DNA from: Burkholderiales bacterium
GTDB taxonomy: Bacteria > Pseudomonadota > Gammaproteobacteria > Burkholderiales > SG8-41
DNA length: 64,000 bases
Reading direction: 5' to 3'
Assembly (NCBI GenBank): GCA_030683105.1
Contig: JAUXMZ010000024.1
Span: 1 to 64,000 of the forward strand
Below are positions 44,026 through 47,902 of the stretch, piece after piece. Position numbers and translations under genes: made by a program. How positions within the stretch are numbered: position 1 is the stretch's first letter; the number at the start of each line of letters is the position of its first letter. The notes beneath the pieces are model-generated. The model was given only the letters and a program-made list of their open reading frames with translations, did not search any database and was not told where the DNA came from.

Positions 44026-45096
44026 TTACGCAGCCAGCTCCATGCAGACTTCGGCCACGGCGCGGGTGGCTTCGGGCTTGCCCGCCGCACGCGCCGCCTG
44101 CGCCATGGCCAGCAGCTTTTCGCGCGTGAACTCGCCAAGCAACCAGGCCAGCTTTTCGGGCGTGAATTCGCGCTGGGGAATCAGTACCGCAGCGCCACGG
44201 TCGGCGAGATAACGTGCGTTGTGGGTCTGATGATCATCGACCGCGTGCGGGTACGGCACCATCACGCTGGCGATGCCTGCGGCGGCGATTTCGGATACGG
44301 TCGAGGCGCCGGCACGGCAGATGATGAGATCGGCTGCGGCATACCGGGCAGCCATGTCATCGACGAAGGGAATGAGTTCCGCACTTACGCCCGCCAGCCG
44401 ATAGGCCTCGCGCAGCGCCTCGGCATGGAGCGACCCCGACTGATGGGTAACCTGCGGACGGGTGTCGGCTCCGAGCAGTGCCAGCGCCTGCGGCACGGTC
44501 TCATTGAGCGCGCGCGCACCGAGACTGCCGCCTATCACCAGCAACTGCAACCGGCCGGCGCGGTTGGCGTAGCGGACCTCCGGCCCTTTGATCGCCGTAA
44601 TCTCGCTGCGCACCGGATTGCCGGTCCAGATCACCGCGGTCGATGCGGCGCAGGCATTCGGAAATGCAACCAGAATCCTGTCGGCGAGTCTGGCCAGCAC
44701 GCGGTTGGTCAGCCCGGCGATCGAATTCTGCTCATGAATCACCAGCGGGCGGTTGAGGAACGAAGCCATCATGCCGCCGGGGAACGCCACGTAACCGCCC
44801 ATGCCCAGCACGACGTCGGGGCGGTGCAGAAAAATCGCCCGCGCGCTTTGCCAGAATGCCACCAGCAGATTGAACGGCAGCAGCAGCTTGCGCAGCCACC
44901 CCTTGCCGCGCACGCCGGTAAAACGGATCCAGGCCATGGTATAGCCCATGGGCGGGATCACCCGCGCCTCCATGCCGGCGCGGGAACCCATCCACACCAC
45001 GTTCCATCCCTGGCCGCGCAGATGCTCGGCGACCGCCAGGGCCGGGAAAATATGGCCACCGGTACCGCCAGCCATGATCATGATGGTTTTAGACAC
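44026..45096 (-). CDS. murG: Lipid I to lipid II N-acetylglucosaminyltransferase
   Basis: A 356-residue GT-B glycosyltransferase adding GlcNAc to lipid I on the inner membrane. Hallmarks are the first glycine loop MAGGTGGHIFPALAVAEHL (residues 8-26), GGYVAFPGG, HEQNSIAGLTNR, VIGGSLGARALNE and CRAGASTVSEIAAAG. The start is a GTG at 45096, overlapping by 8 bases a short ORF that repeats the first 17 codons. ftsW lies 243 bp upstream, an unusually long gap for this cluster. Confidence 0.97.
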   Translation of the reverse strand: MSKTIMIMAGGTGGHIFPALAVAEHLRGQGWNVVWMGSRAGMEARVIPPMGYTMAWIRFTGVRGKGWLRKLLLPFNLLVAFWQSARAIFLHRPDVVLGMGGYVAFPGGMMASFLNRPLVIHEQNSIAGLTNRVLARLADRILVAFPNACAASTAVIWTGNPVRSEITAIKGPEVRYANRAGRLQLLVIGGSLGARALNETVPQALALLGADTRPQVTHQSGSLHAEALREAYRLAGVSAELIPFVDDMAARYAAADLIICRAGASTVSEIAAAGIASVMVPYPHAVDDHQTHNARYLADRGAAVLIPQREFTPEKLAWLLGEFTREKLLAMAQAARAAGKPEATRAVAEVCMELAA

Positions 45097-45229
45097 GAGC
45101 GCCTCCAGAGCCCACTCGCATAACGGCCATATTTTCGGTGTAGGCTAATGCGCGCGCATTGCGCGCTACGCCGAAACCAAAAATATGGCCACCGGTGCCG
45201 CCAGCCATGATCATGATTGTTCGGCTCAT
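45089..45229 (-). CDS. Short ORF duplicating the murG N terminus (leader-like)
   Basis: A 46-codon ORF beginning MSRTIMIMAGGTGGHIF against MSKTIMIMAGGTGGHIF in murG: 16 of 17 residues agree. Base differences include a Ser codon change (AGC for TCT) and other silent changes. After residue 17 it runs through a REP-like palindrome (45125-45190) and ends at 45089, overlapping the murG GTG. The layout matches the murC copy: palindrome, duplicated 5' end, real gene. Leader peptide or duplication scar are both possible. Confidence 0.6.
   Translation of the reverse strand: MSRTIMIMAGGTGGHIFGFGVARNARALAYTENMAVMRVGSGGARV
45125..45190. repeat. 66-bp palindrome inside the murG-like leader ORF
   Basis: The outer arms GGCCATATTTT and AAAATATGGCC enclose TTCGGTGTAG/CTACGCCGAA and a GCGCGCAATGCGC-type core. 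The right-hand arm is itself part of the duplicated murG segment, so palindrome and duplication are joined. The inner part resembles common proteobacterial REP sequences. Confidence 0.65.
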
Positions 45230-45247
45230 AAAAATTTAAAACTCTTT

Positions 45248-45326
45248 GCCACAGAGAGCACAGAGGACTCAGAGGAAACCCAAAAGCTGATTTCATTCTC
45301 TCTGTGATCTCTGTGCACTCTGTGGC
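45248..45326. repeat. CACAGAG nonamer palindrome, copy 3
   Basis: The left arm begins GCCACAGAGAGCACAGAGG and the right arm ends CTCTGTGCACTCTGTGGC. It fills the space just after the ftsW stop and is followed by the short murG-like ORF, the same arrangement as copy 2 before murC. Confidence 0.78.
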
Positions 45327-45338
45327 TAATGCTTGTCT

Positions 45339-46499
45339 TCATACGGCGAGACCACGCATGAGCTGCCTGTTTTCCCAATCGACACGCAGCAGCACTGCGA
45401 TCGCGCAGCAGGTAGCGGCGATGGCGCTGCCGCCAAAAGACAGCAGCGGCAGCGTCAGCCCCTTGGTCGGCAACACCCCCATGTTCACGCCCATGTTGAT
45501 GATCGCCTGCACGCCCAACCACAAGCCGATACCGTGGGCGATCAGTGCCGCGAAATGGCGTTCGAGCGCGGACGCGCGCAGACCGATCGCAAACGCCCGG
45601 ATCACGATCCATGCAAACATCACCGCGATCACCGCCACGCCGACAAAACCGAGTTCCTCGGCGATCACCGCCAGCAAAAAATCGGTGTGCGCCTCCGGCA
45701 AATAGAACAGTTTTTCGACACTGGCGCCGAGCCCCACGCCGAACCACTCTCCGCGTCCAAAGGCAATCAGGGCGTGCGACAACTGATACCCTTTGCCATA
45801 AGCATCGGCCCAGGGGTCCATGAAGCCGATTACGCGCTGCATACGGTACGGCGAAAACCAGATCAGCAGCAGGAAGCTCACCACCAGCATCAGCAGCAAT
45901 CCCGCAAACAATCGCCAATTCATCCCGCCCAGAAACAGGATGCCCATGGCAATGACGGTGATTACCGCGAATGCGCCAAAATCAGGCTCGCGCAGCAGCA
46001 GCCCCCCGGTAAGCACCATGACCGCGAACATTGGAAGAAATCCCTTGCGCAGGCTGTGCATATAGGCGGCCTTGCGCACCGTGTAGTCCGCGGCGTAGAT
46101 CACCACGAACAGCTTCATGAACTCCGAAGGCTGAAGATTCACGAAATAAAGCGATAGCCAGCGCTGACTGCCGTTGACCTCGCGCCCCACGCCGGGAATC
46201 AGCACCAGCGCAAGCATCAACAGCCCGAACAGGAACAGGTACAGCGCAGACTGTTGCCACAACCTTATCGGAATCTGAAACGAGACTATGGCCATGGCCA
46301 GGCTGATCGCGATGAAAATGCCGTGGCGCGTCAGGTAATGCATGGGCTGAAATCCGGTGACGCGGCTGCCCTCGGCTATGGCGATCGAGGCCGAATAGAC
46401 CATCACCAGGCCCAGGCTCAGCAGCACAATCGTGATCCAGACCAGAATCTGGTCATAATCTGCAAGCGGCGTACGCTGTTTTACGTCGGAGTAGAACAT
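45339..46499 (-). CDS. ftsW: Septal peptidoglycan polymerase FtsW
   Basis: A 386-residue SEDS glycosyltransferase with about ten helices that polymerises septal glycan with FtsI. Signature blocks are [68 protein letters not shown] in parts (about 250-275) and [12 protein letters not shown]. The ATG at 46499 lies 2 bp after the murD stop; the frame to 46592 is murD sequence out of frame. Confidence 0.97.
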
Positions 46500-46501
46500 C
46501 G

Positions 46502-47902
46502 TCAGCTCCGCCCATCCCGCAGCCGCGTCACCGCCTGCACGAAGATCTCCGCGCGGTGCACATAATTGCGGAACATGTCGTAACTGGCGCAAGCCGGTGA
46601 CAGAACCACGGCGTCGCCGGGCCGGCTCGCCTTGAACGCCGCTTGCACCGCGTCGCCCATATCACGTGCATGCACAAGGGGCACACCGCTTCCAGCCAGC
46701 GCCAGAGCAATCATCCCGGCATCGCGCCCAATCAGCACCACTGCGCGGGCATGAAGGGCGACAGCGGAGGCCAGCGGCGTGAAATCCTGTCCTTTACCGT
46801 CGCCGCCGGCGATCAAAACCACGGGTTGCGTCAGACCGTTGAGCGCGGCAACCGTCGCGCCGACGTTAGTCCCCTTGGAATCGTCAAAGAACACGACCCC
46901 GTCGATTTCCGCGACCTGCTGCACGCGATGCGGCAGCCCCTGATAACGTCGCAGTGCCTCGAGCAGCGGTGCCTCGGGCAAATCGATGGCGCTGACCAGT
47001 GCCAGCGCCGCAAGCGCGTTGGCGGCATTATGCAATCCGGCCACATGCAATTCATCGACCGGCATCATGCTGTGTCCGCCGCGCGCCAGATAATGCGAGC
47101 CGCGCATTTCCCTGATGCCCCATTCGCTGTCGTTGACCGGCACCCCGAGCCCGAATGTCGATACCTCGCGCCCCGGTAACGCCATGCCCATGCTCCGATG
47201 GTCGTCGCGGTTGAGGACCTGCCGCCCGCCTCCGGCGAAAATGCGGGCTTTGGCCGCCGCGTATCCGCCCATGCCGTCGTAACGGTCGAGATGGTCTTCG
47301 CAAAGATTGAGTACCGTTGCTGCCGCAGGTCTGAGGCTTGCGGTGCTCTCGAGCTGGAAACTCGAAAGCTCGAGAACGAATGCCTGGGGCATCTTGTCAC
47401 CGGTCTCTGCCACAGCCAGAGCGTCCAGCGCCGGCAAACCGATATTGCCTGCAACCACGGTGGCAAGGCCGGCTGCACGGCACATGTCGCCAGCCATTGT
47501 GGTGACGGTGCTTTTCCCGTTGGAACCGGTGATGGCCAGCACCTTCGGCGTGCCGAGTGCTGAGTGTTGAGTGTTGAGTGTTGCAAGCGCCTGCGCAAAC
47601 AGTTCGATATCACCGACGACAGGCACACCGCGGCCGGCGGCGGCGGCAATGGAGCGCTCGCGGCAGTCTATTCCGGGACTGATTGCGATCAGATCCACGT
47701 CATGAAAAGTTCGTTCATCAAACGCGCCGGCGGCCACCGCAACCTGCGGCATTTCGTCCGCCAGCAGCGCCGCGTGGGGAGGATACGCGCGAGTGTCGGC
47801 GACGCGTACCTCCGCCCCGTAGCGGGCCAGCCAGCGCGTCATCGACAATCCGGTATCACCGAGTCCGAGCACCACAACCCTCTTGCCTTTGAAATTCAAC
47901 AT
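46502..47902 (-). CDS. murD: UDP-N-acetylmuramoylalanine-D-glutamate ligase
   Basis: A 466-residue Mur ligase adding D-Glu. N-terminal [17 protein letters not shown], the P-loop [15 protein letters not shown] near residue 124, and later [15 protein letters not shown] and [11 protein letters not shown] are visible. Residues about 108-119 ([12 protein letters not shown]) interrupt the strand leading to the P-loop and are encoded by a heptanucleotide array. The enzyme core otherwise looks intact. Confidence 0.96.
47554..47581. repeat. Heptanucleotide array inside murD
   Basis: Four 7-mers: CGAGTGC followed by three exact TGAGTGT. They encode MurD residues 108-117 in frame, just before the ATP-binding loop. 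Confidence 0.82.

Follow-up and report, generated by a model that had tools for sequence, protein, structure and literature searches.

Immediately upstream of murG in the 64,000-nucleotide stretch of Burkholderiales DNA analysed here (the window) lies a short open reading frame whose predicted product begins like MurG itself. This locus raises the question of what such an ORF is, and why it still resembles the gene that it overlaps. The minus strand of the window carries part of a division and cell-wall cluster (mraY, murD, ftsW, murG and murC, recognized by Pfam domains, with the exact names taken from domain plus gene order), and the parts relevant to the question are the following:

44026-45096, minus strand: murG, the present functional gene, with a GTG start and GGAGG 5 nt upstream; assigned by ORF and translation and by Pfam PF03033 and PF04101 (Glyco_transf_28 N and C domains)
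45047-45088, minus strand: present (functional) copy of the 42-nt direct repeat
45089-45229, minus strand: short ORF of 46 codons with an ATG start, known from its translation; its stop overlaps the murG start
45102-45106, minus strand: Shine-Dalgarno-like GGAGG of the putative new murG start, seen in the sequence
45125-45136, plus strand: inverted copy of the target start (GGCCATATTTTC), which lengthens the hairpin of element E; inverted repeats I2 and I5
45133-45182, plus strand: palindromic element E, consensus TTTCRGYGNAGRCTAAY..RTTAYGYCGRARCYAAAA; covariance model R1, 66.5 bits, E-value 4.4e-15, this copy being one of the 13 used to build R1
45180-45221, minus strand: putative old (stranded) copy of murG codons ~4-17; direct repeat
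45226-45342, minus strand: first linker ORF, 38 aa, with an ATGA overlap with the ftsW stop and a TGA that overlaps the short-ORF ATG
45245-45329, no strand assigned: CACAGAG dispersed inverted repeat, within the first linker ORF; inverted repeat I1
45339-46592, minus strand: ftsW, upstream gene of the predicted coupled chain; Pfam PF01098

A sequence-only reading of the locus had held that the short ORF repeats the MurG N terminus, and this is confirmed: the ORF reads MSRTIMIMAGGTGGHIF... and MurG reads (V/M)SKTIMIMAGGTGGHIF..., so that 16 of 17 residues are alike if GTG is read as Met, and the 46-codon ORF overlaps the murG GTG, its TAA stop falling across murG codons 2-3 (GTGTCTAA). The DNA basis of the likeness is the 42-nt direct repeat, 95% identical at a spacing of 133 nt and beyond chance, since BLAST within the genome gives it an E-value of 2.0e-12. 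The AGC/TCT switch in a serine codon, to which that reading had also drawn attention, is real; it sits in codons 2-4, outside the near-identical 42-nt block, and these codons may therefore never have belonged to the duplicated DNA. Several details go beyond the first reading: a palindrome, E, lies between both copies, with arms that extend into the repeat; a second short ORF joins ftsW to the first; and the CACAGAG repeat lies inside this second ORF. From its ATG onwards, the short ORF appears to be composed of a displaced old murG 5' end, E read in frame, the inverted target copy and filler.

The ftsW stop (45339-45341) and the murG GTG (45096) have 242 nt between them. The predicted fold of 45060-45340, a stretch that includes the CACAGAG hairpin, beats 200 of 200 shuffles (z -6.8). 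Seven matches to known RNA families were found, all far below gathering score; five of these fell on the CACAGAG repeat, the other two within ftsW. A scan of 44900-45600 returned no promoter-like site, and its sole terminator-like site is within murG rather than between ftsW and murG. When a 316-nt junction query was searched against the genome, 84 of 86 matches fell in the CACAGAG part (45245-45329), and by eye a relative (G006, locus L026) also has a CACAGAG-type insert at its ftsW-murG junction that is likewise open and coupled.

Two beginnings of murG are thus present, and relatives indicate which is older. Of 25 relatives with a parsed junction, 16 belong to the same family; ATGAGCCGNAC (ATG-AGC-CGN-AC) opens murG in eight of these 16 and in no other of the 25, and GTGTCTAAA (GTG-TCT-AAA) in none of them; the latter start occurs once among all 97 parsed junctions, in the window itself. 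We take the short ORF as the old murG start because it carries the start common among relatives, an argument that draws on part of them, with only 8 of 25 having ATGAGCCGNAC. On these sequence comparisons the short ORF looks like the old murG 5' end, split by E from the present one. Window codons 2-4 show differences beyond simple copying, which counts against this explanation.

The palindrome is not peculiar to this junction. E is a ~50-nt palindromic repeat in the window and 40-69 nt long across copies, and the covariance model of 13 copies, R1, found 15 matches in the genome of the window at E<=1, of which 12 reach E<=1e-3, and at least one match at E<=1 in 22 of the 40 genomes searched, the window genome included; 150 candidates per genome were scored, so these match numbers are lower bounds. 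Its hairpin is conserved, with a covariation of 0.416 against 0.190 after shuffling, 95.8% of positions paired and 159 double changes against 48.6 in shuffles, in an alignment that had been fitted to the model, which favours covariation. A pattern scan of named genomes, which took no account of flanks, found at least 113 loci; by title, 101 of those listed belong to taxa that we take to be Betaproteobacteria, 11 are entered as 'Proteobacteria bacterium' and 1 is from the Gammaproteobacteria. E is dispersed, mainly in Betaproteobacteria. No match fell on plasmids. By hand-entered counts, the number of E copies tracked neither the number of Y1_Tnp domains (Spearman 0.22, p 0.16) nor that of RVT_1 domains (Spearman 0.26, p 0.11), and E is present without Y1_Tnp in two genomes (G006 and G015).

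E tends to lie between duplicated pieces of DNA, as it does at murG. Among 80 of the at least 113 listed loci, in which 85 of 87 elements were usable (the other two having short flanks), a direct duplication scoring >=14 surrounded 27 of 85 E copies as compared to 11 of 1740 positions drawn at random within those loci, and 58 of 85 had no flanking duplication at that threshold. In a wider set, made of all of the at least 113 loci plus covariance-model matches (174 of 179 elements after removing duplicates), 63 of 174 elements scored >=14 and 111 were below threshold or had short flanks. The duplications have variable lengths, from ~20 to >90 nt, and in 19 of the 27 in the first set it is at the AAAA end of E (-4 or -3) that the right copy starts. 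The duplicated pieces include gene starts, gene ends (FtsW, MraY, Dps, FolE2, MetK, GAPDH) and 5' parts of tRNA-like genes. An inverted target copy was found in 14 of 86 elements versus 42 of 1489 controls at score 4, an enrichment modest enough that we describe this copy from examples and not as universal.

The sequence-only reading had proposed looking for the same arrangement in relatives, and such a search shows that it recurs. A pattern of MurG HIF followed by E matched in 10 of 399 genomes of the order; the match in G244 is not murG, which leaves nine, the window included, and a Nitrosomonadales MAG (L176), which has a second E at the ftsW end, brings the genomes with the MurG module to 10. 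In one genus (g46) the module is present in 7 of 9 sampled genomes, and one genome (G275) has three tandem copies of the unit; many of the sampled genomes are MAGs. Counted from first base to first base, the leader stop falls 1 or 5 nt downstream of the murG start in every one of the nine measured MurG leaders, so that stop and start overlap, which fits the earlier suggestion that translation of the ORF could feed murG, here as predicted coupling. Matching leaders are found at unrelated genes, including NuoD, RuvC, RmlB, PilD and others. Where E lies at a gene start, a Phe TTT codon precedes it in one frame and the encoded peptides are of the F-[SG][SF] type, and 22 of 25 loci match this pattern in a script that sought that phase only; of the three that do not, L197 is in phase and L147 out of phase (by hand), and L122 has no duplication (score 8.0). 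Relative to the duplicated start, the leader stop fell between -5 and +10 nt in 18 of the 21 leaders measured, nine of them MurG leaders, those of one genus not being independent of each other; L159 (a NuoD leader) and L250 lie outside these 21 and were read separately. Five further leaders fit the same range (L159, L194, L246, L251 and L186), three PilD leaders end 13 nt upstream of the start, and the leaders at L113 and L117 stop inside E, exceptions among the 5' cases. In a hand-chosen set of 14 leaders, from which the misses L117 and L147 were left out, 13 fit, as compared to 4.6 (sd 1.7) expected from shuffles.

The short ORF is also one member of a series of overlapping frames. In the window these run from ftsW through ATGA into the 38-aa linker, through a second ATGA into the 46-aa ORF, and through GTGTCTAA into murG. 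For comparison we assembled 99 distinct ftsW-murG junctions, drawn from the 97 of 117 loci that could be parsed, four of them picked for E (L176, L167, L225 and L256), and from four more leader loci, so that eight in total were selected for E or a leader. Sixty-three of these junctions are direct, with the murG start -10 to +6 nt from the ftsW stop. Where an insert separates the two genes, overlapping linker ORFs, each starting -10 to +6 from the previous stop, bridge ftsW to murG in 33 of 34 testable inserts, which by eye comprise several repeat kinds; L367 is the single failure. The numbers expected were 17.9 from dinucleotide shuffles, 10.5 with other E sequences swapped in and 18.2 with random 1-2 nt deletions (z 6.0, 8.8 and 6.0, respectively), the junction ends being held fixed in the shuffle and swap controls. 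Under a strict window the chain holds in 29 of 34, versus 14.8, 7.1 and 14.0 expected for shuffle, swap and deletion. Two further inserts were too short to shuffle, and both keep the chain. At two loci (L043 and L305, in G035 and G082) a different GC-rich insert, repeated in L043, occupies the ftsW-murG junction and the linker chain is intact.

Together, these comparisons suggest that the short ORF is probably a translation-coupling linker built by an element that works like the palindromic elements of Rickettsia (RPE), its translation being predicted from the sequence. The ~50-nt palindrome E would have been inserted into murG just after the codon for Phe-17, at a TTTT site, rather than having arisen in place, and the insertion would have left the murG 5' end on each side of E and extended the hairpin by a short stretch of inverted target sequence. 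The old gene start would be the copy lying upstream, which has stayed attached on the ftsW side; the downstream copy, with its own Shine-Dalgarno sequence and start, would now make MurG. E is open in the Phe-codon frame in the window, so ribosomes from the old start could read through it, and those leaving the leader would stop exactly over the new murG start and could reinitiate there. The short ORF would then be a link in an unbroken chain of ftsW, linker 1, short ORF and murG that ribosomes presumably use and that keeps translation of the operon coupled. The MurG-like peptide may owe its retention to continued sequence exchange between the two copies together with selection on the gene. More generally, and more tentatively, since we put this at somewhat under an even chance, E may be a 'self-forgiving' insertion: it would copy the nearby gene end across its palindrome and, at gene starts, add a frame-matched leader that stops on the rebuilt start, so that the gene is never lost and translation stays coupled, with exchange between the copies protecting the displaced one from decay.

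If so, this would explain how a mobile repeat can enter essential division and cell-wall genes without killing the cell, and coupling of ftsW to murG would be kept in nearly every sampled, parseable junction of the order, even under invasion by repeats. The junctions would offer natural replicates for testing termination-reinitiation, and they would carry a warning for annotation, namely that short ORFs echoing the N terminus of the next gene can be displaced gene starts. They would also raise the testable question of how displaced gene fragments escape decay.

The displaced copies have not decayed like neutral DNA. Displaced and functional copies were compared in 38 Pfam-backed cases with 21 gene labels, and 132 codon differences are synonymous and 37 non-synonymous, as compared to an expectation of 21% synonymous (sd 3%) under random substitution, and on this ground we reject neutral decay of a duplicate. 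The bias holds at gene starts (85:20) and gene ends (47:17) and is absent at ProB (0:2), GAPDH (3:3) and SerS (8:8). Of the 63 duplications in the wider set, 47 had a bounded ORF, and the 38 cases are 33 of these 47 automatic entries plus five re-framed by hand for wrong strand (L138, L226, L246, L186 and L140); a sixth hand-framed case, L122, gave no pair. Left out were L145 twice (Pfam match, no differences) and L128, L191, L245, L261, an antisense reading of L110, L240 and L150 (no Pfam match). Genes were chosen first by eye, and the Pfam check was made partly before and partly after the count, with matches for all 38; without gene selection the bias is weaker, at 125:85 over all 47 automatic entries, five of which were in wrong frames and seven without a Pfam match. 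In genus g46, third-position identity between the two murG copies is 0.90 within a genome and 0.61-0.64 between genomes (0 of 5000 permutations). From these pairs, and from the tandem copies in G275, the two copies seem to exchange sequence. Concerted evolution alone gives no synonymous bias, so an extra assumption is needed; exchange would plausibly make harmful changes in the displaced copy costly.

The claim that the copy does not behave as a neutrally decaying duplicate was therefore well founded, but its cause is general and not specific to MurG. The sequence-only reading had gone on to suggest a MurG glycine-loop peptide that competes for folding or binding, and a functional leader of this type, a MurG-like N-terminal peptide under purifying selection that acts on MurG or its mRNA by regulation or binding, could draw on AGGTGGHIF, invariant in every stranded copy among the ten genomes compared, on the retention of the leader frame in ten genomes and on the synonymous bias itself. 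However, similar leaders, stop/start overlaps and synonymous bias occur at NuoD, RuvC, RmlB, PilD and other unrelated genes, with the E-encoded part alike among them, and the bias extends to duplicated 3' ends (MraY, FtsW, Dps, FolE2), where no N-terminal leader is made, so no MurG peptide function is needed; within a genus, moreover, the displaced copy tracks its own genome's murG. We set a MurG-specific regulatory peptide aside on these grounds and regard such a function as quite improbable: repeat exchange, not peptide function, would be what preserves the copy. A different source for the bias would be import from a related species, in which one gene end arrived with E and the two copies had already diverged, as functional genes, by the time they came together. 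Import would account directly for the synonymous differences and would suit the strongly diverged copies of L176, and at mraY of G020 the stranded end is nearer to G009 (third-position identity 0.85) than is the functional end (0.55); at mraY of G008, however, there is no such difference (0.68 versus 0.65), the g46 pairs match their own genome, and some pairs are identical (L137, L185 and L161). In the window a foreign murG end is not favoured, since both copies share synonymous states (GCT, GGT and CAT) that are absent there from the congeners G001 and G002. We consider import unlikely here and keep it as a rival for strongly diverged pairs and other loci, where G020 speaks for it and G008 is neutral.

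The geometry of the locus invites two further readings. Direct repeats and palindromes favour slippage, and a plain local tandem duplication at the hairpin followed by drift would make the ORF meaningless and its open frame a matter of luck, a reading with which the tandem amplification of the unit in G275 and the occasional openness of the two other frames of E agree; that E is a dispersed family with a consensus, that stop/start overlap and chain exceed chance and that the copies do not decay as neutral DNA argue against it, and we judge it improbable. A hairpin between matching take-off and landing sequences, with both ends staying coding-like, also recalls programmed bypassing, in which ribosomes would hop across E, taking off in the first copy and landing at its match in the second, with both copies encoding the same protein. 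Hopping, though, would require neither a separate start with a Shine-Dalgarno sequence in the second copy nor a leader stop positioned at that start, and both are present, making bypassing highly improbable.

Read as a coupling linker built around E, the locus can be set beside known systems. The closest kind is the protein-coding palindromic elements of Rickettsia (RPE) and Wolbachia (PMC2229807, PMC10969869), small mobile palindromes in frame inside unrelated genes, as E is in CobT, Lnt and an AMP-binding enzyme. RPE of Rickettsia are given there as 105-146 bp, with target duplication marked '?' (PMC2229807). E differs in being 40-69 nt long, in its mainly betaproteobacterial distribution and in that a third of copies lie between duplications, often of gene ends. 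It shares with RPE the dispersed palindrome with a conserved hairpin and in-frame insertion in genuine protein genes but not the size, for which reason we say that it works like RPE and do not file it as one. Bacterial MITEs such as Correia/NEMIS, ERIC and RUP are described as non-autonomous inverted repeats whose transcripts fold as hairpins, with direct repeats in younger copies and, in some, ORFs (PMC10969869, PMC2229807). The palindrome of E amounts to terminal inverted repeats of this type; its flanking duplications (27 of 85 copies), however, are longer than usual for MITEs and include gene ends or tRNA-like halves, often with an inverted target copy at one end. REP and the GTAG- and CGTC-tagged repeats are short palindromes near gene ends, some inside ORFs (PMC3733652). 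E lacks the high copy number and RAYT transposase association of REP: it reaches at most 15 matches per genome among 40 (a lower bound), it occurs without Y1_Tnp in G006 and G015, and it duplicates gene ends.

In its consequences the locus resembles two other kinds. With its open frame, a stop that overlaps the next start and a Shine-Dalgarno sequence inside the leader, the short ORF has the layout of a coupled leader ORF. Elsewhere, too, a stop that overlaps the next start couples a leader ORF to the gene that follows; this putative leader differs in being apparently built from a displaced gene start and a palindromic repeat. Some phages and islands insert into the end of a gene (e.g. icd) and rebuild that end from a synonymous copy. 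Insertion at a gene end and a replacement end that differs mostly silently are shared with E, which, in contrast, is without integrase or cargo, forms an inserted unit of ~100 nt and affects 5' ends too. Long variable direct repeats are made by the IS1549/IS1634-type transposase group. In literature searches of an open-licence library, none of the listed titles and abstract openings describes E or rebuilt starts with coupled leaders; most subscription papers lie outside this scope, so this is weak evidence of novelty.

E is not open in the Phe frame in every copy: it is so in 59 of 153 elements, versus 37 and 8 in the two remaining frames of the strand concerned, and this counts against the coupling explanation. 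In 37 of the frame matches the ORF extends >=40 codons on both sides of E. Ten hand-picked long ORFs containing E were scanned, and nine had Pfam matches: CobT (L214) contains E in frame, in Lnt (L270 and L188) it comes shortly after the N-terminal domain, and in an AMP-binding enzyme (L212) it separates two domains, whereas it lies outside domains in the remaining scanned ORFs. Within the operon, E also recurs at the 3' end of mraY (L127, L119 and L280), with displaced MraY C termini, of which L119 has three copies. A prepilin peptidase gene start with E and a duplicated N terminus was seen in five Nitrosomonadales or Gallionella MAGs (L194, L197, L208, L218 and L250). Finally, by eye, E lies in or beside tRNA-like genes at L160, L222 and L196, with the 5' part duplicated and one intact-looking copy left.
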